Shown here piece after piece: positions 8,963 to 21,535 of a DNA stretch of 49,188 nucleotides. The stretch is from a bacterium (GTDB lineage: Bacteria > Fibrobacterota > Fibrobacteria > UBA11236), in assembly GCA_900299345.1 (NCBI GenBank), contig OMJM01000030.1, positions 1 through 49,188 of the forward strand, read 5' to 3'. A program made the translations under genes and the position numbers. Under the pieces are notes generated by a model. It did not search any database. It saw only the letters and a program-made list of their open reading frames with translations, and was not told the DNA's origin. Positions within the stretch are counted from its first letter, which is position 1; each line of letters opens with the position of its first letter.

Positions 8963-10129
8963 TTGCAGCTAACTGATTCGAACGCAGCGTTTACACGATT
9001 GACGGGTTTCTTGAACAAGATTTGTGGAGAATATTTCAGCACGGGTAATGGAGTCGTGTTTAGAATGGTTTGGCAAGACGGGGAGCCCGTCCAATATGGC
9101 CAAGGAACTCCCGTATTCACGATTGTCGTCAAGGATAAAATCGGTGTTTCCGCATTGGCTTCATTGGACGCGACGTCCATTCTCGAAGCCTACATGCTGG
9201 ACCATATTGACATCCAAGGAGACATTTCGGGTATCTTCGCGTTCCGCAATATGACGACGGACAGTCATCCTTTTCGATATTTTTGGAGTCTGGCCAAGCC
9301 CTTGATCTTTGGGCAAACCCGTATGGATCGATCCGGCATCGCGACGCATTACGACCATCCGCCCGAATTTTACCTCGCGTTTCTCGACAAACGCCATCGA
9401 AGTTATTCGCACGGCATATTCTTGCGTGACGACGAATCACTGGAAGATGCCATGACCCACAAGTTGGATTTCGCACTCGAGCAGATTAACGTCAAACCTG
9501 GAGATCGTGTACTGGACATTGGGGGCGGATGGGGGATTTTCAGTGAATATGCGGGCAAGAAAGGGATACGGGTCACGTCGTTGACCATTTCTCAAGAAAG
9601 CGAAAAATATCTGAACGCTTTGATCGCGCGGGAAAAGCTTCCTTGCGATGTGGTCAACTGTCACCTTTACGAGTATCATCCAGGCATTAGTTATGATGCC
9701 ATAGTCAATTTGGGAGTCACGGAACATCTGCCAGATTATGCGCGAACTTTGCAGGTGTACCAGCGCTTACTAAGGCCGGGAGGTAAGATATATCTTGATG
9801 CAAGTGCCTGCAGGGAGAAGTATAAATTTCACACCTTTATTAATCGTTACATATGGCAGAACAACACTTCTTTACTCTGCTTGCACGATTACCTTAAGCA
9901 ACTCGCTAAAACTCCGTTTCAGCTACTTGGTGTGTGGGATGATCGTTGGAACTACTATTTAACCGCGAAGAATTGGGCTCAGAATTTTGAGGCGCGGCGC
10001 GAATTTATTATCGGTCAGTCAAGCGAAGCGATATTTAGACAGTTTCAAATTTATCTCTGGGGTACTGTTGATACCTTTGGGTCAGACATCATGCAGGCCT
10101 ATCGCTGGGTGATTCAATTGCCCGATTAA
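8963..10129 (+). CDS. Cyclopropane-fatty-acid-synthase-like methyltransferase, divergent active site
   Basis: This 388-residue SAM enzyme has an N-terminal lipid-binding-like domain (1-110) and a CFA-synthase methyltransferase domain. Family landmarks are HYDHPPEFYLAFLD (129-142), the SAM loop VLDIGGGWG (183-191), LTISQESEKY, GVTEHLPDY and a C-terminal LTAKNWAQNFE. The family adds methylene or methyl groups to lipid double bonds at the membrane. Several active-site positions differ: the YSCGYW cysteine is His in YSHGIF, and the usual H-T-I stretch after RPGG reads LDASACREKY. The substrate may therefore not be a normal phospholipid. Its TAA is directly followed by the ATG of the UbiA gene, which implies coupled expression and a shared pathway. 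Confidence 0.8.
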   Translation: MQLTDSNAAFTRLTGFLNKICGEYFSTGNGVVFRMVWQDGEPVQYGQGTPVFTIVVKDKIGVSALASLDATSILEAYMLDHIDIQGDISGIFAFRNMTTDSHPFRYFWSLAKPLIFGQTRMDRSGIATHYDHPPEFYLAFLDKRHRSYSHGIFLRDDESLEDAMTHKLDFALEQINVKPGDRVLDIGGGWGIFSEYAGKKGIRVTSLTISQESEKYLNALIAREKLPCDVVNCHLYEYHPGISYDAIVNLGVTEHLPDYARTLQVYQRLLRPGGKIYLDASACREKYKFHTFINRYIWQNNTSLLCLHDYLKQLAKTPFQLLGVWDDRWNYYLTAKNWAQNFEARREFIIGQSSEAIFRQFQIYLWGTVDTFGSDIMQAYRWVIQLPD

Positions 10130-11041
10130 ATGTCCAAGTATCCTGTGCGACTAAAGTCTTTCTTCCAACTCGTCCGTATTCCCACTGTTTTCAGCGCGCT
10201 CAGTAATGTCTATGCGGGCTACTGGATCGGTGGCGGTATTGCTGGAGTCACCCCCTTATTGTCGGGTCTTTTGGCGGCTGGGCTTTATCTCATGGCGGGC
10301 ATGGCTCTAAATGATATTGCGGATTACAAAGTTGATGCCAGAGAAAGACCGGAAAGGCCTCTGCCTTCTCGCGCCATTTCGTTATCAGCCGCATGGTTGT
10401 TTTCGATGGCCATGCTGGGTTCAGCCATGATATTGCAATGGCTTGCAAATCCTGTCGCAGCTTTTGTGGGCGCCTTGCTTGCACTCTGTATACTGGCTTA
10501 CAATTTTTTTCTTAAGGGTACGTTTCTGGGCCCACTGGCCATGGGAACGTGTCGGATGTTGAATTTGCTGTGTGGTATCACGCTGAATGCCGATAGTCTT
10601 TCGGACATTTGGAATCTGCCGCTTCAGAGTTATTGGATTTTGGGTTCGCTTGGGGTATACATCTTTTGTGTCACCTATCTGGCCCGAGATGAGGTGGGAG
10701 GTAATACCAAGGCTCGCGCCAGGGTGTTCTTTGCTGGACTGATGTTGTGGATGGGAGCGTGGATTGGCTTCGCAGCTTTCCATCCATCGTTGTTGTCGTT
10801 TATCCTTTTCGCAGTATTGTTGTGCCATCTTTGGCTGCTTTCCACTGCTCTCCGGAATCTGCGCACAAATCCCGGTTCTCCTGCATCCACCGGCAAACTG
10901 GTGGGGATGCTGCTGAGAACCATGCCGTTGACCGATGTTGTGGCTATGCTGTCGGCTGCCGTAGCAGTACCTTGGGCCCTGTTGGGTCTTGCTTGGATGC
11001 TACCGGGCCCTTTTTTGGCCAGACGGTTTTACAGTACCTAG
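10130..11041 (+). CDS. UbiA-family membrane prenyltransferase
   Basis: This 303-residue protein has eight to nine hydrophobic helices and the Mg-pyrophosphate motif N-D-x-x-D-x-x-x-D at N61, D62, D65 and D69 (LNDIADYKVDARERPERPLP). A weaker second acidic site is YLARDE at about 180-185. UbiA enzymes move a polyprenyl group to an aromatic or polar acceptor inside the inner membrane. It starts at the base after the stop of the cyclopropane-synthase-like gene. EboC-like proteins are one possible subgroup, but no other ebo genes are near. The acceptor and the prenyl length are unknown. Confidence 0.82.
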   Translation: MSKYPVRLKSFFQLVRIPTVFSALSNVYAGYWIGGGIAGVTPLLSGLLAAGLYLMAGMALNDIADYKVDARERPERPLPSRAISLSAAWLFSMAMLGSAMILQWLANPVAAFVGALLALCILAYNFFLKGTFLGPLAMGTCRMLNLLCGITLNADSLSDIWNLPLQSYWILGSLGVYIFCVTYLARDEVGGNTKARARVFFAGLMLWMGAWIGFAAFHPSLLSFILFAVLLCHLWLLSTALRNLRTNPGSPASTGKLVGMLLRTMPLTDVVAMLSAAVAVPWALLGLAWMLPGPFLARRFYST

Positions 11042-11110
11042 CCTTAATGTTGCCGAAGGAGTCGTTTGTCCATCCATGTATATTAGGCCCAAGTTTTCAA
11101 AGGAGCACTT

Positions 11111-11692
11111 ATGCGATTGGGTTTGATGGTGGTGTTGTCGGGCGTTTGTCTTTTTTCACGTATTGCAAATGCCGAAGATTTGAACTTGAGTGAAAAACCC
11201 GAGACAACCTCGGTTTATCTGACGCCCTACGCGATCGGTCCTGGCATTGGGGCCCAGTTTGCGCTCAACCAGGAACTTAAGGATCAGAGCCAGGCATTTC
11301 TGAAATTTTCCTTATCCCAAAGCTGGCGATTTAAGGAGCATTGGGATTTCGGATTGGATCTGGATTGGTCGGTGCCTGGCACCAATGTGGGTGGCCTGCT
11401 GAACCTCAACTATGTCTTCGGTGAAAATGGGTTTCGGCCGTTCGTAGGATTGGGTGCCGGCATCGGCTATGTGGACGATCCTTTGTACACGAAATTTGGA
11501 CAACGCTTGGGAATTGCGGGCATGGGCTATGCGGGCATGTATATCGACGTGACGGACAACGCCCATTTGCGTTTACGCGTTCCAGTGGAAGTCGTGGGTA
11601 ACAGCAAGATGGATCGCTCTGTCGGACTTGATATTGCGGTACTGTTCTCGCTGCCGCCTTATTCCACCAAGGTCAAGAAACTCAAATACTGA
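11111..11692 (+). CDS. Small outer-membrane beta-barrel protein
   Basis: This 193-residue protein has a signal peptide (MRLGLMVVLSGVCLF, cleavage after SRIANA) and amphipathic strands of alternating hydrophobic residues. RPFVGLGAGIGYVDD (about 113-127) is a frequent turn and strand of OmpA-like or OmpW-like eight-stranded barrels. A clear AAAGGAG lies seven to eight bases before the ATG at 11111. There is a 69-base gap after the UbiA gene, containing a TATATT at 11079-11084 but no convincing -35. No enzyme motif is seen, and its role is unknown. Confidence 0.65.
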   Translation: MRLGLMVVLSGVCLFSRIANAEDLNLSEKPETTSVYLTPYAIGPGIGAQFALNQELKDQSQAFLKFSLSQSWRFKEHWDFGLDLDWSVPGTNVGGLLNLNYVFGENGFRPFVGLGAGIGYVDDPLYTKFGQRLGIAGMGYAGMYIDVTDNAHLRLRVPVEVVGNSKMDRSVGLDIAVLFSLPPYSTKVKKLKY

Positions 11693-11744
11693 AGCTGGAT
11701 GGGCGGAGCGATGTGGTGAGCGGGTCGAACCGTCGAAGCCTGTT

Positions 11745-12305
11745 TCACTTCTTTTCTTCGCAAAGCACCGCTTTTTGCTGTTGAATCCAGATACGAGCAC
11801 GAGCCCGGACATCCTTCACGGCTTCCTCGCGTGATGTGAAGTAATACTGTCGGTGACTGCGGCCTGCCGCGGTTCCACCTTCAGAGGGATCGGAAACGAA
11901 GGATTGCGCATGCCGCAACTTTTTTTCCACTTCCTTGATTACGGGTGCGCGGCTTTCCACCGCACGGGTCGTGATGATGAGCAGTTCCTTTTCATCGGTT
12001 AGGTAATTCACATCCAGTTTGGCCGTGTAAGACTTGGCCCATTCGTTTCTTCCAGAGTCTCCGTTGATACTCCTCAGATAGATGGCTTCCGAGGTGACCA
12101 TCGGTTCGAGAATGTCAGGATTGGGAAGCGAAAGAATGCAATCCCGGGTTACTTCGCGGGTCACTTCGGAACTCCCGTCCGCGGAAGTCTGCGCCGCGAT
12201 CACGGTGACTTTCTTGTTCACGTTCTTTGGAGCGCCCTCTTCGGCAAGTGCGGTCGTCATGGAACAGGCAAGCAGAATGGCGCCAGATTTCAATGGGGCT
12301 CTCAT
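11745..12305 (-). CDS. Secreted protein of unknown function
   Basis: I do not recognise this 186-residue protein. It has a signal peptide (MRAPLKSGAILLACSMTTALAEE) and a basic, helix-rich C-terminal half with many Arg, Lys and Glu residues. The ATG at 12305 is chosen over the one two codons earlier because GGGAGG lies six bases before it and directly abuts the other. The gene is convergent with the barrel gene upstream and divergent from the LpoB-like gene, with about 90 bases between starts. A periplasmic location beside lipoproteins linked to cell-wall synthesis is suggestive only. Confidence 0.6.
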   Translation of the reverse strand: MRAPLKSGAILLACSMTTALAEEGAPKNVNKKVTVIAAQTSADGSSEVTREVTRDCILSLPNPDILEPMVTSEAIYLRSINGDSGRNEWAKSYTAKLDVNYLTDEKELLIITTRAVESRAPVIKEVEKKLRHAQSFVSDPSEGGTAAGRSHRQYYFTSREEAVKDVRARARIWIQQQKAVLCEEKK

Positions 12306-12395
12306 ATACATCCTCCCGGTTGGCGGACAAACTACAAACCCCGGTGGCCTCCCGCCCTTCGAATAAGTACACTATTGGCAATCAGGAGGCGTTCC

Positions 12396-12995
12396 ATGAC
12401 CCCATTCGGTACCCGTATTTCCAGCCTTGCGGTTTCTGTCCTGTTGCTTTCGGGATGCGGAACCAAGGTGACCCGTGTTTCCCACGACAGCACCATCGAT
12501 CTCTCGGGAGAGTGGAATGACACCGACTCCAGGCTCGTGGCCGAAGAGATGGTGAAGGATGCGGTGAGCGCCAACTGGTACAAGGCCTATGAGACCCAGA
12601 AAAAGATTCCCCGCGTCGTGATCGGTGAAATCCGGAACAAGAGTCATGAGCACATCAACACCGAAACCTTCATCAACGACATTCAACGCTATCTGGTGAA
12701 TTCGGGCAAGGTCGAGTTTGTGGCCAATAAAGCCGAACGCAAGGAACTTCGGGACGAGAAGTCGGATCAGGCGCAAAATTCCTCTGTGGAATCCCAGCAG
12801 ATGGCCGGTGAGGAAAGCGGCGCGGAGTTGATGATGCTTGGGGAAATCAATTCCATCGTGGACTCCGAGGGCGGGAAATCGGTGGTGTTCTACCAGATCA
12901 ACCTGGAACTCGTACAGATCGAATCCCACAAGAAAGTCTGGCTCGGCGACAAGAAGATCAAGAAATTCGTGGAGAAGAGCGCTTCCAAGCTTTGA
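12396..12995 (+). CDS. LpoB-like penicillin-binding-protein activator lipoprotein
   Basis: This 199-residue lipoprotein has lipobox LLLSGC with Cys21, followed by a TolB-N-like alpha/beta domain. Sequence resembling the LpoB family includes the WYKAYETQKKIPRVVIGEIR segment, then NTETFINDIQRYLVNSGKVEFV and GAELMMLGEINS. LpoB proteins reach from the outer membrane to stimulate a bifunctional peptidoglycan synthase. AGGAGG at 12384-12389, six bases before the ATG, fixes the start. The next gene, 12 bases downstream, is a COG3014-like lipoprotein; this pairing is known in other Gram-negatives. No partner PBP is in the window. Confidence 0.8.
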   Translation: MTPFGTRISSLAVSVLLLSGCGTKVTRVSHDSTIDLSGEWNDTDSRLVAEEMVKDAVSANWYKAYETQKKIPRVVIGEIRNKSHEHINTETFINDIQRYLVNSGKVEFVANKAERKELRDEKSDQAQNSSVESQQMAGEESGAELMMLGEINSIVDSEGGKSVVFYQINLELVQIESHKKVWLGDKKIKKFVEKSASKL

Positions 12996-13007
12996 TGCCT
13001 ACTCTTG

Positions 13008-14423
13008 ATGCGCAGATGGTTATTCCTCGCCAGCATGTCCCTGTTTTTGGGATGCGCCAACAACAGCCTCGTCCGCTTTGAAGCCATCGCCAAGCGGGCA
13101 GCTTCCCAGGATTTTCTGGATGCCGCTGCGCAGGTCCGCAAACAGCGGGATCTCTATAATCACACCGATTTGCTTTACGCCATGGATTTAGGCCTGCTCT
13201 ACCATTACGCAGGACTTTATGACAGCAGCGCGATTTTTCTCCGGGAAGCCGTGAAGATTCAGGAGGATCTGTACGCGCATTCCATTACGAATGAAGCGGC
13301 GGCGTTGCTGGTCAATGACAACATCCGTCCCTATCGCGGCAAGGCGTATGAGATTACCTGGCTGCACCTTTTCCTGGCGTTTGATTATCTGGGAATGAAT
13401 CGATACGACGACGCCCGCGTGGAAATCCGTCAGGCCGAAATTTTCCTGAGGGAGCAACGCCGGAAAGTTGGAACCGACCCGAAGGAATATCGCGACGACG
13501 GCGCATTCCGGACCGTGGCGGCGTTGGTCTATGAGGGGCTGGGTGAAAAAGACGATGCGCTGATTTCCCTTTATCAGGCCGTGAAGGCATACCGAGAATC
13601 CGGGCAACCTTTGCCGGAAGGGCTGGCTCGTTATGCCTATGCGGCGTTGATGGCGAATGGCCGGGAGTCGGACGCGAAGGAATTGAATCTGGGGCCCTCC
13701 GTGCAAGATTCCAGAAGGCCCGCCTTCGGTGGAAGCGAGATCGTGGTGGTGGGAGAAGTGGGGCGTTCGCCGATGCTGGATGAGACGGCTTTCTGGGGGA
13801 CGTGGGTGCGTGATGGCATGTTGATCTATCACTACAAGGACGCCAACGGAAATACTGTCACCGATGCCATGGCCGCGCCGGGTCTTCCCGATTCGGAATA
13901 TGAAAAGGGCAATGGCCGCAAGACCCGTTCCGGAACGACCTTTCATGTGAAATGGTCGATGCCGACGTTGCGGGATGTTCCCTCGCAATCCGATGCTTTG
14001 CGTGTGGCGCGGGGCAATGATGTTTATGCGGGAGAGGCTTACGGGGACACACATGACCTGCTGCAGGGCGATCTCAATGCGCACCGAGGCATTACGTTGC
14101 TGCGTACAGTGACCCGGGTGGTGTTGCGCACAATTGCGGCCGAGAAAACCAAATCAAGTCTCAATACCAACGAGCCATTGTTGAATCTTCTGCTCAACGT
14201 GGGTACGGACGCGTTGGCGGATCAGTTGGAGCAGGCGGATCTTCGCGTCTGGTTCCTGTTGCCGCGTAATTTACGGATGGCGCGCGTGCCCGTACAGCCC
14301 GGGCGGTACACGCTGGAAATCGGTTCTGAAGATCGCAACGGAAGAACGATCCGTTCGGAAACGCGGGATGTTGAAGTCAAAGCAGGGGAGAAGAAGTTTG
14401 TGTTTTTTACTTCGCTGAAGTAA
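13008..14423 (+). CDS. COG3014-like TPR-containing lipoprotein
   Basis: This 471-residue lipoprotein has the lipobox LFLGC with Cys16. Helical repeats resembling TPRs run from about residue 50 to 220 (LLYAMDLGLLYHYAGLYDSSA, LFLAFDYLGMNRYDDARVE, AALVYEGLGEKDDALISLYQ). A mixed beta C-terminal part includes VLRTIAAEK and ends in RVWFLLPRNLRMARVPVQPG. This matches the general layout of the uncharacterised COG3014 proteins that sit beside LpoB-like genes. The pair probably acts together at the outer membrane in cell-wall synthesis. The ATG at 13008 is preferred over a TTG three bases earlier. It is convergent with the aminotransferase gene, five bases away. Confidence 0.7.
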   Translation: MRRWLFLASMSLFLGCANNSLVRFEAIAKRAASQDFLDAAAQVRKQRDLYNHTDLLYAMDLGLLYHYAGLYDSSAIFLREAVKIQEDLYAHSITNEAAALLVNDNIRPYRGKAYEITWLHLFLAFDYLGMNRYDDARVEIRQAEIFLREQRRKVGTDPKEYRDDGAFRTVAALVYEGLGEKDDALISLYQAVKAYRESGQPLPEGLARYAYAALMANGRESDAKELNLGPSVQDSRRPAFGGSEIVVVGEVGRSPMLDETAFWGTWVRDGMLIYHYKDANGNTVTDAMAAPGLPDSEYEKGNGRKTRSGTTFHVKWSMPTLRDVPSQSDALRVARGNDVYAGEAYGDTHDLLQGDLNAHRGITLLRTVTRVVLRTIAAEKTKSSLNTNEPLLNLLLNVGTDALADQLEQADLRVWFLLPRNLRMARVPVQPGRYTLEIGSEDRNGRTIRSETRDVEVKAGEKKFVFFTSLK

Positions 14424-16939: not shown

Positions 16940-18100
16940 TTAGAACAAGGTTGCTTTCTCGGTGTACGTCCCCTTGGAGGTGATGACCTTGATGGCATGC
17001 ATTCCCGGATTGTGGACAGGGATGTTCCACTGCATGGGAGCAATGCCCGACACGGTGGCCGTTAGAGAGCCCTTCGTGTTGTAGACTTCGAGCGTCACCC
17101 TGCCGGAACCGCTCACGCGCACATTGTTGTTCACAAAAGCCAGCGAAATGGCGTCCCGCGCGTCGCGTTCGCTGTGACCCGCAATGCCGGTCGAGCCGAC
17201 ACAAGCCGTGGGATCGTGCTTGACCAAATACGATTTGTAGTTCGCATCCGTGGAGGTCATGCAACCTTCCAAGTTCAGCAGCTCAACCTTGCGAAAGCGG
17301 GTGGGGGCTGACTCTGATTGCAGGGAGATGTAGAACTCCTTGATGGGAGTGTTGTTGACAATGGGTGTGGTGTTTCCACTGACAGATCCGGAGTATTGCA
17401 CAGGCCGGTAATAGGTAAAGGCGATCTGGCCGCTTACGGTATGGCGAATGATTGAATCGCTCATGACAATGGCTCCCACTGTAAGCCAATTGGGAGCAAG
17501 CGCATTCGTTCGGCTGATGGTAGCGGCGCTGGTGCAGTGGGTGGTGACGACAGAGCCTCCGGTGGGTGCGCTATAGAATGCCGTACCAGGGGTGCAGAGG
17601 TTGGCGGTACTGTTATTGTCCGCATCCACATTGTTGGGTCCCAGCAACTGATTCTCCAAGCTGATCGGATAATCCTGGTTCACTCCCATGTCCGCTACAG
17701 CCTGCCCCATCATGATACCGTTGTTTTGCAACGCCCAAGTTGGTGCGCCCGAAGGTTGGCTTGCATAGAATTGGTGTTCGGCGCGTACGATGAAATATTT
17801 AAAAGAACGCGCCTTATACCCGATGTGGCCCCAAGGGTTTCCTGTCCAGTTGGCATAAGTGGTCGTATTCACGTCCAGCACAGTATCGGAGCCGACCACG
17901 GCCCAGCGGAAGGTGTTTCTGGGATCGACATTCAATTGCTGTCCCGCAATGTGGATGTCCCAGTTGGTACGAAGGCTTGTATCGGCCTTGTTGAACAATT
18001 GAATCCACGCCGAGTCGTTGGGCCCGGCTTGGACGGATTTGCTTCCGAGAAATGCGAGGCAGACTGCCATCGCAAAACTGATGAAAAGATTCCTGGACAT
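16940..18100 (-). CDS. Secreted DUF1080 (3-keto-disaccharide hydrolase-like) protein with C-terminal sorting-type domain
   Basis: This 386-residue protein has a signal peptide (LFISFAMAVCLAFLGSKSVQA). A LamG-like DUF1080 domain spans about 22-290, with WIQLFNKADTSL, the paired WALQNNGIMM and YPISLENQLLG core strands, and FRKVELLNLEGC. The last 65 residues (VTLEVYNTKGS..., HNPGMHAIKVITSKG) form a small beta domain like type IX-secretion C-terminal signals. DUF1080 enzymes cleave 3-keto-glycosides. The second ATG at 18100 is chosen because GGGAG is well spaced before it. The gene is divergent from a clear paralogue at 18311. Substrate and activity are unproven. Confidence 0.75.
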   Translation of the reverse strand: MSRNLFISFAMAVCLAFLGSKSVQAGPNDSAWIQLFNKADTSLRTNWDIHIAGQQLNVDPRNTFRWAVVGSDTVLDVNTTTYANWTGNPWGHIGYKARSFKYFIVRAEHQFYASQPSGAPTWALQNNGIMMGQAVADMGVNQDYPISLENQLLGPNNVDADNNSTANLCTPGTAFYSAPTGGSVVTTHCTSAATISRTNALAPNWLTVGAIVMSDSIIRHTVSGQIAFTYYRPVQYSGSVSGNTTPIVNNTPIKEFYISLQSESAPTRFRKVELLNLEGCMTSTDANYKSYLVKHDPTACVGSTGIAGHSERDARDAISLAFVNNNVRVSGSGRVTLEVYNTKGSLTATVSGIAPMQWNIPVHNPGMHAIKVITSKGTYTEKATLF

Positions 18101-18310
18101 GAACATTCTCCCTTTTCAGAATACGGAACAGCGGTGTTGAAGGCTGGTATAAAACTAAGGCAAAAGTGTGAATTTTGCTGGAGAAAAAGGAGGAATTCTA
18201 GAGGAGTACTTTCGAAAATCATTTAAATCGGTTGTTATCTGCCGTAGAGATGCGAAAATAGTCTATCGGCGTTACCTTTCGGTTGAACATTTCAAAAAAG
18301 GGGGGACGAG

Positions 18311-19573
18311 ATGGGGAAGATGATTTTTGCAATCTCGTTGCTAGCTCTAACAGTAGGTCAGGTATTTTCCGCCCCGAACGATTCCAACTGGGTGCAGTTA
18401 CTTCGTCAGGGAGATACCTCACTCAGCGATTGGATCGTGAAAATACAAGGGCAAACACTAGGGGCGAATCCTTATCGCACCTTCAGCTATGCGCAAGCGA
18501 ATGATGGTTCTCCTCGTTTGATCGTCACGGACACGGTTAATTACGCCAACAACTATGGATTCGGCCACCTCTTTTATAAAACACCCTTTTCCGATTACTT
18601 GTTACGTGCCCAATTTCACTTTCCTTCCAAGGCTTCTTATGCTCTCACCCAAGGCACGGCCACAGGCAAGACTTGGACCATTCAAAACAACGGTTTGATG
18701 TTGCATTGCCAGTCTCCAAGTTCGATGTCGGTCAGTCAGGCCTATCCCAACTCTTTCGAAAATCAGTTGCTCGGGTATTGGAATGGAGGCGCCACCGGAG
18801 GATTCAATCCACCCGATGTCAGAAGTTCAAACCTGTGTCTGCCCCAATCGACGGTTTACTACAACAACGGGTCGCCCGCCGTATCAGGAACCGGTTGGTT
18901 CTCCGACGGTTCAGGGCACCATTGCACCGCCGCTAAGCCCCACAGCCTGGCGTACGACACGGCGACCATTGCCACGAATGGAGCCAACTCGACGAACGCG
19001 AACTGGCTTGGAAAGGACATCTGGCAATACGCCATGGCGCGCGTTCTGGATTCGACCAGCATGACCTTTTTTGTGCGCAATCGTCCTGACACGGCTTGGG
19101 ATTCGGTGATGAGTTTCAGCAGGCCGCATTACGGCAACGCCTCGAGCCTGACCAACCTCAACGGCGCGACGGTGGTGACCTCGGGTTACATCTCCATCCA
19201 GATGGAAGGCACCACCACCGAGTTTGCCAAGATCGAATTGCTGAACCTCGTCGGCTGCAAAAATCCCGCGGACACGTCCTATCGCGCTTACTTCGTGAAG
19301 GATTCCAGCACTACGAAATGTTCGGGCGTCACCACCAACATCACCGGCTCCCAGCGCCGGGCGCAGGGAACCTTTTTCCTCTCCGGAAATCGCATTCAAG
19401 CCACGAACGAAATCATCAATGTCGAAGTGTTTGACTTGAATGGCACTCGCATCATGTCCCTGCGTGGAACTGGCCGATCTTTTCTCGATGTTTCGAATCT
19501 GAAACCCGGGCTGTACACCTTGCGCGTGCAAACCAGCGTGGGTCTGGCGCAAGCCGTTTATGCGAAGATGTGA
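18311..19573 (+). CDS. Secreted DUF1080-like protein, paralogue of the divergent neighbour
   Basis: This 420-residue protein has a signal peptide ending near VFSAPNDSNW. Its domain order matches the divergent neighbour: APNDSNWVQLLRQGDTSL, TWTIQNNGLMLH, YPNSFENQLLGYW and FAKIELLNLVGC. The C-terminal domain, from about 360, reads INVEVFDLNGTRIMSL...LKPGLYTLRV, a textbook type IX-like sorting domain. AAAAAGGGGGGACG lies just before the ATG. It is followed after 24 bases by the sugar dehydrogenase gene, so the two are probably one operon. DUF1080 activity on keto-sugars is family knowledge; the real substrate is unknown. Confidence 0.75.
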   Translation: MGKMIFAISLLALTVGQVFSAPNDSNWVQLLRQGDTSLSDWIVKIQGQTLGANPYRTFSYAQANDGSPRLIVTDTVNYANNYGFGHLFYKTPFSDYLLRAQFHFPSKASYALTQGTATGKTWTIQNNGLMLHCQSPSSMSVSQAYPNSFENQLLGYWNGGATGGFNPPDVRSSNLCLPQSTVYYNNGSPAVSGTGWFSDGSGHHCTAAKPHSLAYDTATIATNGANSTNANWLGKDIWQYAMARVLDSTSMTFFVRNRPDTAWDSVMSFSRPHYGNASSLTNLNGATVVTSGYISIQMEGTTTEFAKIELLNLVGCKNPADTSYRAYFVKDSSTTKCSGVTTNITGSQRRAQGTFFLSGNRIQATNEIINVEVFDLNGTRIMSLRGTGRSFLDVSNLKPGLYTLRVQTSVGLAQAVYAKM

Positions 19574-19597
19574 TGGAATTTCTGAAGGAGTTGAATC

Positions 19598-21496
19598 ATG
19601 ATGCCCAATCTGTCTAAACTGAGCGCCACAGCTCTCGTTTTTCTTCTACCAAGCCTCACCACCGCCCAGACTTGCACAGAACCCGACAGTTCTCAATTCC
19701 GGGTGGATACGCTTGTTGCGGCTGCAAGCACAAATACGCTGAACACGAATGAAACGCTCAATCCCGTCAATGCAGGATCGGGCAACGTTCAAATCGCGGT
19801 GGCGCCGGACGGAAGGGTCTTCGTCGCTAAAATGAAGTCGGGGGAAATTCGGGTTTACAACCCGGGCACTCCCAACACCACCACTCTTGCCGGCATTGAC
19901 ACGACATTCTTCAACGGCGAAGACGGCCTGCTGGGCATCGCGATTCCGCCGGATTTCAACACTACCCATTGGTTGTACGCGTTCGCTAGCGATCCATGCG
20001 GCCTGAATTGCACCAACCGATCCTGCGTGCTGGCCCGCTATACCGTTACAAATAACCTGCTCACCAACAAAAAAATCATCCTGCGTGTCCCGCGCCGCAC
20101 CAACGATAACCATCACTCTGCCGGCGGCCTCGCGTTCGACGACAAGGGTGTGCTGATCATCGGCACGGGCGACAATACGGATCCCCACAACAGCAACAAC
20201 AACGGGTACGGCCCCATTTATTATCCCACCACCAATGCCGACGCCCAGGGTACGGCCAGCAACTCGAATGATTTGCGCGGCAAAGTTCTCCGCATCAAAC
20301 CCATCGCCTTTGCGGACAACGTGACGCCCACTCCCGGCATCGACAACACCTATTCGATCCCCTCGGGAAACCTGTGGGAGTACATTAGTCTTCCCTCCTT
20401 CAATCCGGGTTGGAAGAACGACTCCGATGACATCGCCAAGGTGCGCAAAGAGATTTTCGTGTTTGGGACCCGCAACGCCTTTCATCCCCGCGTAGACGGT
20501 CGTTCCGGCTGGATTTTCTGGGGCGAAGTTGGGCCGGATGCGAATGCCGACGCGTTGACGGGAACGTCCGCTCGCGGCCCCTCAGGCCACGACGAGTGGA
20601 ATCTCGCGATCAAGCCGGGATTCTACGGGCATCCCTATTGCAATGGTTACAACGTTCCCTACAATTCCCTGACGAGTCCCAACTCGACAACCTATGGAAG
20701 TAAATACGACTGCGTGGAAACCGGAAGCGCCTCCCTCACGCCGCTGATCAATCTTTCGCCGAACAATACGGGCATCCGTCATATGCCGCCCGCCATTCCG
20801 GCGTTGGTGGCCTATACGAGCGGCAACAGCACGGATGACGATCCGCGCTTTAATCCGACCTACAGCACCACCATTCAGCACGATTATGAAACGGCGATTA
20901 GCGCGCCCATGTACCGCTATGATTCCGCCGGTCCGGCAGGACGTTTCCCACCTTATTACGAGGGTAAGATTTTCTTTTTCGATTGGTCGCGAAGAAGCTT
21001 TCGCGTCATCAACATCGCTCCGAACGGAACCATTCCTTCCGGTGCGGCGGGTGTGACGAACTTTGCGCCCCGTGGATGGCCTCTTGCAAGCTATACGGAC
21101 ATGATGTTCGGTCCGGACGGAATGCTCTACGCCCTTCGTCATTCCGACAATGGTTATAAAGCGACCAACACCAACGGTGCGGGTTTATACAGGGTTCGTT
21201 ATACGGGAACCTACAACAGCTCCTGTTACACGCCGTTCACTCCCACGGTTTGGGGGCCGGGCGCCACGGACAATACGACCGCGATTCATGGGGGCTCTAT
21301 TCGGAAAACGATTGCCGCCATGACGACGAACGGACTTATCACATTGCCCGTGGGATATAAAACGGTTGAACTCTACCGTGTTTCCGGACGGAAAGTGTGG
21401 AGTTATCATCGCAATGATGCAGGCATGTTGGAACAGGTTCGCCTGCCCGCTGAACTCGGTCAAGGGATTTTGCAGGCAAAATTTCTTGCCGACTGA
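19598..21496 (+). CDS. Secreted PQQ-type glucose/sorbosone dehydrogenase with C-terminal sorting-type domain
   Basis: This 632-residue protein has a signal peptide (ALVFLLPSLTTAQ) and a six-bladed GSDH-type propeller. Markers are FNGEDGLLGIAIPPDF (105-120), the catalytic-histidine segment NDNHHSAGGLAFD (169-181), GTGDNTD, LRGKVLRIKP, and GHDEWNLAIKPGFYGHPYC. The final 50 residues (KTVELYRVSGRKVWSYHRND) form a sorting-type beta domain. The family oxidises aldose sugars with PQQ outside the inner membrane. AAGGAG sits seven bases before the first ATG. It follows a DUF1080 gene, suggesting a shared extracellular sugar-oxidation role. No PQQ synthesis genes are in the window. Confidence 0.85.
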   Translation: MMPNLSKLSATALVFLLPSLTTAQTCTEPDSSQFRVDTLVAAASTNTLNTNETLNPVNAGSGNVQIAVAPDGRVFVAKMKSGEIRVYNPGTPNTTTLAGIDTTFFNGEDGLLGIAIPPDFNTTHWLYAFASDPCGLNCTNRSCVLARYTVTNNLLTNKKIILRVPRRTNDNHHSAGGLAFDDKGVLIIGTGDNTDPHNSNNNGYGPIYYPTTNADAQGTASNSNDLRGKVLRIKPIAFADNVTPTPGIDNTYSIPSGNLWEYISLPSFNPGWKNDSDDIAKVRKEIFVFGTRNAFHPRVDGRSGWIFWGEVGPDANADALTGTSARGPSGHDEWNLAIKPGFYGHPYCNGYNVPYNSLTSPNSTTYGSKYDCVETGSASLTPLINLSPNNTGIRHMPPAIPALVAYTSGNSTDDDPRFNPTYSTTIQHDYETAISAPMYRYDSAGPAGRFPPYYEGKIFFFDWSRRSFRVINIAPNGTIPSGAAGVTNFAPRGWPLASYTDMMFGPDGMLYALRHSDNGYKATNTNGAGLYRVRYTGTYNSSCYTPFTPTVWGPGATDNTTAIHGGSIRKTIAAMTTNGLITLPVGYKTVELYRVSGRKVWSYHRNDAGMLEQVRLPAELGQGILQAKFLAD

Positions 21497-21503
21497 AAAA
21501 TTT

Positions 21504-21535
21504 CCTTCACACGCCAAAAACGTGTGAAGGCTTTT
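21504..21535. terminator. Bidirectional intrinsic terminator between sugar dehydrogenase and gmd
   Basis: A perfect 10-base stem CCTTCACACG / CGTGTGAAGG with a seven-base loop is followed by CTTTT on the plus strand and by AAATTTTT on the minus strand. It separates two convergent genes and overlaps the gmd stop. Confidence 0.88.

Follow-up and report, generated by a model that had tools for sequence, protein, structure and literature searches.

The 49,188-nucleotide stretch of DNA analyzed here (the window) is one entire contig, OMJM01000030.1, from the 2.24 Mb assembly of an uncultured bacterium related to Fibrobacter, which degrades cellulose; it carries a gene for a DUF1080 protein (DUF1080-B) followed by one for a GSDH-type six-bladed propeller, beside a second DUF1080 gene (DUF1080-A). 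The most likely reading, which we advance tentatively, is that of a secreted or surface pair that combines redox and cleavage functions and acts on extracellular glycans. DUF1080-B and the propeller would then form an operon of two genes whose secreted products attack glycans, and would be one of many combinations of this kind within the Fibrobacterota family concerned. The basis for this reading is the families and fold of the encoded proteins, their operon-like spacing, a recurrent linkage of the two families in related genomes, and a conserved active-site core. The features concerned are as follows:

16940-18106, minus strand: DUF1080-A, 388 aa, PF06439, secreted; resident gene adjoining purA
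18107-18310: divergent intergenic region, 204 bases between DUF1080-A and DUF1080-B
18229-21532, boundaries approximate: extra two-gene block of DUF1080-B and GSDH, missing between DUF1080-A and gmd in the congener G002
18311-19573, plus strand: DUF1080-B, 420 aa, PF06439, secreted; type A sorting tail of the type IX secretion system (T9SS) at about residues 355-420
19574-19597, plus strand: gap between DUF1080-B and GSDH, 24 bases, with a GAAGGAG ribosome-binding-like site
19598-21496, plus strand: GSDH-type six-bladed propeller, 632 aa, PF07995; C-terminal domain at about residues 567-632
21504-21530: hairpin separating GSDH from the convergently oriented gmd gene, -15.3 kcal/mol, z -3.8

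Open reading frames (ORFs) were found at exactly the positions that an earlier note on this DNA had given for the three genes, and the 24-base distance it reported between DUF1080-B and the dehydrogenase was reproduced. This spacing, together with the ribosome-binding-like site, suggests that DUF1080-B and GSDH are probably co-transcribed, and the hairpin downstream is a probable bidirectional terminator for GSDH and gmd. A promoter scan returned promoter-like sites in numbers not above those found in shuffled sequence.

Both DUF1080 paralogues exceed the Pfam gathering score of 26.8 for PF06439 (DUF1080, 3-keto-disaccharide hydrolase), at 38.2 bits for DUF1080-A and 35.5 bits for DUF1080-B; this profile search confirms the DUF1080 assignment and does not place the pair in an unrelated carbohydrate-binding family. 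The two proteins align over their full length at 32% identity (E=3e-44). In a profile built from DUF1080-B relatives, the N-terminal part matches the DUF1080 structures 4jqt, 3h3l, and 3hbk, and the predicted model of DUF1080-B has 4jqt, 3hbk, and 3u1x as its top fold matches, with 9fbe, a solved structure titled 3-keto-glycoside eliminase/hydratase, at rank 10. The subfamily to which the pair belongs is divergent and cysteine-rich, with four subfamily cysteines, and the core PF06439 motifs N-S-G, E-x-Q, and LQ-x-H-G appear in the window proteins as N-N-G, E-N-Q, and Q-x-E, the last with a His-to-Glu change. The catalytic activity of the window pair therefore cannot be assumed. Among PF06439 proteins more broadly, 3-ketotrehalose is documented as a substrate and a member is required for 3'-ketolactose use (PMC9007349).

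The GSDH protein scores 81.8 bits against PF07995 (cut-off 25), and its AlphaFold model is a confident propeller (pLDDT 85.5) whose closest folds by Foldseek are 2ISM (E=2e-18), soluble glucose dehydrogenase (sGDH; E about 1e-16), and the aldose sugar dehydrogenases (Asd); Hedgehog-interacting protein (HHIP), a non-enzymatic relative, is also among the matches. Its score against NCBIfam TIGR03606 is 35.7 bits, far under the curated cut-off of 434.55. When the active-site residues were mapped onto sGDH through a 33-sequence profile alignment, the equivalents of the catalytic base His144 (H173), of Arg228-Asn229 (R292-N293), and of Gly247-Pro248 (G327-P328) were found to be kept, and E108 falls at the sGDH Gln76 position. 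The equivalents of H173, R292, and G327 are almost invariant in 33 Fibrobacterota sequences, and the catalytic His, Arg, Asn, and Gly are invariant in all 77 sequences recovered outside this phylum. A (D/E)W.R motif at 462-465 is likewise conserved across the GSDH clade, including its cytochrome-fused relatives. The window protein and its 32 aligned Fibrobacterota homologs contain no CxxCH heme motif.

Linkage between the two families was assessed in 11 related genomes, using a 2.5 kb radius and an expectation from uniform placement; the counts are lower bounds. DUF1080 occurs within 2.5 kb of GSDH in at least 28 of 167 cases, against 6.4-6.8 expected (P ~1e-9 to 2.5e-10), and among the matches listed 21 of the 28 linked pairs share a strand. 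At the level of the family, then, a conserved linkage with the dehydrogenase does exist. Gfo/Idh/MocA, the dehydrogenase type that commonly supplies 3-keto sugars, was rejected as a DUF1080 partner in this family, since among the matches listed in five genomes only 1 of 124 DUF1080 cases had such a neighbor (1.6 expected; no enrichment); nor does the window neighborhood contain a gene for a Gfo/Idh/MocA C3-dehydrogenase. ThuA was likewise not enriched as a direct DUF1080 partner (4/167 versus 3.5 expected, among the matches listed). The DUF1080-GSDH linkage is therefore partner-specific, and not an effect of gene-dense islands. ThuA does cluster with GSDH (at least 19/134, 4.9 expected), and each family also clusters with itself, GSDH in at least 27 of 177 cases (7.5 expected) and DUF1080 in at least 24 of 124 (3.9 expected). 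The numbers of family members are large throughout, with 8-53 DUF1080 and 8-73 GSDH matches per genome; the genome under study has 11 DUF1080 matches, approximately 16 GSDH genes, and 6 strong Gfo genes. A search of 50 other genomes of the class found no relatives of the window GSDH protein at E<=1e-10.

Relatives beyond the phylum extend this picture. Among named genomes, the best GSDH relatives are for the most part secreted fusions from Bacteroidota and Actinomycetota, with one from Verrucomicrobia; their layout is ThuA-GSDH-PKD-CBM6, with a cytochrome c added in the Bacteroidota examples checked, and CxxCH occurs in 40 of the 77 non-Fibrobacterota GSDH ORFs. A DUF1080 gene lies no more than 10 kb away at 9 of the 77 outside GSDH loci. 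Six of these DUF1080 proteins were read in detail, and four of them are ThuA-DUF1080-ricin lectin fusions, one of which is separated by only 75 bases from a ThuA-GSDH ORF (locus L161). In a Saprospirales bin (L180, 8719-12402), the ORF next after GSDH encodes 1227 aa with the arrangement cytochrome c-PA14-DUF7133 (weak)-DUF1080, which places a cytochrome c, a propeller-like domain, and DUF1080 in a single chain. Judged by domain content, these fusions are independent evidence that DUF1080 proteins may work with redox proteins outside the cytoplasm. A search of one open library of papers found nothing on ThuA with DUF1080 or with "PQQ-dependent sugar dehydrogenase" (PQQ, pyrroloquinoline quinone).

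The likely location of the proteins is also informative. Each of the three has a hydrophobic signal-like core at its N-terminus, in keeping with the signal peptides claimed previously. C-terminal sorting domains had been claimed for all three as well, and here the result is graded: in searches with the T9SS sorting-tail model TIGR04183 (curated cut-off 23), DUF1080-B scores 29.5 bits, DUF1080-A falls under the cut-off at 19.7 bits, and the GSDH protein has no match, its likeness appearing only at the profile level (GSDH-family profile against DUF1080 tail profile, hhalign probability 96%). The tail in the profile of DUF1080-B relatives matches the T9SS C-terminal-domain structures of gingipain and mirolase. 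The C-terminal domain of the GSDH protein is predicted to be a small beta domain, and would resemble a T9SS tail from which the final strand is missing. The T9SS translocon SprA is present in the genome, at 578 bits in one frame (cut-off 200). Because of these tail scores, the profile comparison, and the presence of SprA, we regard surface display as well supported for DUF1080-B, likely for DUF1080-A, and possible for the GSDH protein.

Local gene order suggests a more complicated history than a single module. The earlier note had treated the three genes as one module, with the paralogs divergent from a shared 210-base region; the divergent layout holds, but the region is 204 bases long, and neither the sharing nor a conserved three-gene unit is borne out. 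In G002, purA, DUF1080-A, gmd, and hom follow one another without interruption, gmd lying approximately 95 bases from DUF1080-A, and in G001 the order is purA, DUF1080-A, hom; both keep DUF1080-A without DUF1080-B and GSDH beside it, and the three-gene module was rejected on this synteny. DUF1080-B and GSDH therefore form an extra two-gene block between DUF1080-A and gmd, either gained in this genome or lost in G002. Sequence upstream of DUF1080-A is conserved with G002 as far as approximately 18228, and the remainder of the divergent region belongs to the extra block; the supposed shared control region is therefore composite. Recent foreign import of the block was rejected as far as composition can tell, as it has no GC or GC3 anomaly. 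The nearest relative of DUF1080-B is 60% identical (in G009), and those of GSDH are 66-67% identical (at another site of this genome, and in G002). A further DUF1080-B ortholog, at L099:7911-8995 (G007:C34), is split into two overlapping frames, an apparent frameshift or sequencing error.

It is possible to outline how such a pair might operate. Signal peptides would take DUF1080-B and the GSDH protein across the inner membrane, and a type IX system would display at least DUF1080-B, and perhaps also the GSDH protein, on the outer surface. The propeller, if redox-active, would oxidize one of the sugar residues in a glycan or oligosaccharide outside the cell, at a presumed site, with externally acquired PQQ or a different bound cofactor, and would pass electrons to an external acceptor or a cytochrome. 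In the presumed order of reactions, a DUF1080 protein would then break the keto-sugar glycosidic bond via elimination or hydrolysis. The resident DUF1080-A, as a paralog, may share substrates. The selective linkage and the fusions reinforce this idea of oxidation followed by cleavage and render it plausible; the central step, 3-keto formation, is unproven.

Several observations weigh against this reading. The residues that bind the PQQ carboxylates in sGDH, Lys377, Arg406, and Arg408, are replaced in the sequence alignment by S464, S498, and T500, a loss that is clade-wide and includes the cytochrome-fused relatives. The gene pqqC was not found in this genome nor in 9 of the 10 relatives, and pqqE gave nothing above cut-off in this genome; the only pqqC among the 11 genomes, in G004 (G004:C65:6771-7439), served as a positive control. 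The relative G008 lacks pqqC although it has 53 DUF1080 and 73 GSDH matches. The description of the third protein as a PQQ-type dehydrogenase thus holds for family and fold and not for cofactor chemistry. Characterized GSDH-family enzymes, to our knowledge, oxidize aldoses at C1, not C3, and oxidation at C3 by the GSDH protein is unproven. The DUF1080 pair is divergent, reaching only 35-38 bits and reading Q-x-E in place of LQ-x-H-G, and the structural model of DUF1080-B is weak (pLDDT 65). The linkage itself is unevenly distributed, as four large genomes within a single genus contribute 21 of the 28 linked pairs; and the close orthologs of DUF1080-B (in G009 and G007) and of GSDH (C42 of this genome, G002:C2, and G004:C46) are unpaired, meaning that the pair as it stands here is not conserved. 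With respect to the cofactor, the GSDH protein may use scavenged PQQ in a rebuilt pocket, another cofactor, or none; PQQ could come from the environment despite the lack of own synthesis. Of the extracellular oxidize-then-cleave route proposed in the earlier note, the extracellular part is thus plausible, given SprA and the T9SS tail of DUF1080-B, and PQQ dependence and C3 oxidation are not supported.

These observations leave room for other explanations. Somewhat less probable than the preferred reading, though to be taken seriously, is that the two proteins share a substrate and not a chemistry: the propeller would be a C1 aldose dehydrogenase acting on freed sugars, as its characterized relatives are, and the DUF1080 protein would be a glycanase or would use 3-keto sugars made elsewhere. 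DUF1080 proteins of Thermogutta have been put forward as glycosidases of the xanthan backbone (PMC5673643), and both the unpaired close orthologs and the self-clustering of each family would fit this arrangement. It accounts less readily for the DUF1080 fusions and near-fusions with cytochrome c and propeller-like domains, or for the selectivity of the clustering, in which DUF1080 is unlinked to ThuA although ThuA clusters with GSDH. We consider it unlikely that the proteins are non-catalytic surface binders, a cofactor-less propeller like HHIP with a DUF1080/CBM66-like lectin, mediating adhesion to plant polymers. The missing carboxylate ligands, the HHIP fold match, the resemblance of the weak DUF1080-B model to lectins and CBM66, and the fact that 10 of 11 genomes lack PQQ synthesis while having as many as 73 GSDH matches all favor such binders. 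However, the near-invariance of the catalytic residues within and beyond the phylum and the fusion of 40 of 77 outside sequences to a heme-binding motif count against a purely binding role, and fungal AA12 enzymes bind PQQ tightly while lacking counterparts of Lys377 and Arg408 (PMC6881789).

It seems more improbable still that the canonical route applies, with DUF1080-A and DUF1080-B cleaving 3-keto glycosides produced by a C3-dehydrogenase, either NAD-dependent Gfo/Idh/MocA or flavin-type, whose gene lies elsewhere, and the GSDH gene being incidental. One cluster in this genome (L104, C54:10000-29000) holds Gfo/Idh/MocA, two DUF1080 genes, a five-CxxCH cytochrome, a major facilitator superfamily symporter, a GSDH propeller, and several porin-like paralogs; it looks like a complete locus for 3-keto metabolism or electron export, recalls known 3-keto loci (PMC9007349), and favors this route. 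Against it stand the lack of enrichment near Gfo/Idh/MocA, the ratio of 6 strong Gfo genes to 11 DUF1080 matches in this genome, and the normally cytosolic or periplasmic location of Gfo enzymes, where DUF1080-B has a T9SS tail. A bolder version of the preferred reading is also rather unlikely in our estimation: that in this Fibrobacterota lineage a rebuilt-pocket GSDH protein makes keto-glycosides on the surface and a T9SS-anchored DUF1080 protein breaks them, the same parts being joined, in other phyla, into ThuA-propeller-cytochrome c and cytochrome c-propeller-DUF1080 chains.

The L104 cluster, together with a second DUF1080-GSDH cluster (L103), contains a further group of proteins. Six secreted paralogs of approximately 430-520 aa (L103:1532-4246; L104:2290-3852 and 9267-13814) have barrel-like strands at the end and a common motif, YKYNP(D/E)A.NLGEYLFR. 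Five of them were scanned against Pfam, none giving a match, and those compared with NCBIfam and the PDB had none either.

Known oxidative 3-keto routes process oligosaccharides within the cell or the periplasm. If a propeller oxidase does feed a surface DUF1080 protein, the opening of polymers would not require classical glycoside hydrolases, and a role would emerge for the dozens of unassigned GSDH and DUF1080 genes per environmental Fibrobacterota genome. Even without C3 oxidation, the clade presents a pocket that keeps the catalytic core and loses the PQQ-holding residues, in genomes mostly unable to make PQQ.

Comparison with known systems shows partial likeness in each case. In the Bacteroides BT2156-BT2159 operon, where the dehydrogenase is of the Gfo/Idh/MocA type, a PF06439 enzyme (the 3-ketotrehalose hydrolase BT2157) acts on 3-keto glycosides; unlike that operon, the window genes have no adjacent Gfo gene, and the family has no DUF1080-Gfo linkage. 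The lactose route of Caulobacter, with LacABC and a DUF1080 protein (CCNA_01705; PMC9007349), shares an oxidoreductase gene near a signal-peptide-bearing DUF1080 gene, and oxidation followed by hydrolysis outside the cytoplasm. The oxidant there is the periplasmic membrane LacABC, whereas here it would be a GSDH-type propeller, with outer-surface display likely. With sGDH (1CRU) and the aldose sugar dehydrogenases (2ISM, 2G8S, 3A9G), the window GSDH protein shares the six-bladed propeller and the equivalents of His144, Arg228, Asn229, and Gly247-Pro248; it differs in lacking those of Lys377, Arg406, and Arg408, and in having the (D/E)W.R motif and an extra C-terminal domain. The fungal AA12 pyranose dehydrogenase CcPDH (PMC6881789) is similar in having a GSDH-like propeller without counterparts of Lys377 and Arg408 and in being paired with a cytochrome. 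CcPDH, however, has a His560 clamp and retains an Arg406 equivalent (Arg621); that Arg is missing from the window clade, no member of which was seen with an AA8 domain. Bacteroidota and Actinomycetota have fusions of the types ThuA-GSDH-PKD-cytochrome c-CBM6 and ThuA-DUF1080-ricin lectin, with the same GSDH clade (33-38% identity) and the same altered pocket; they are fused to ThuA, and often to cytochrome c, whereas in the window each part is a single-domain protein of its own with a T9SS-like tail.

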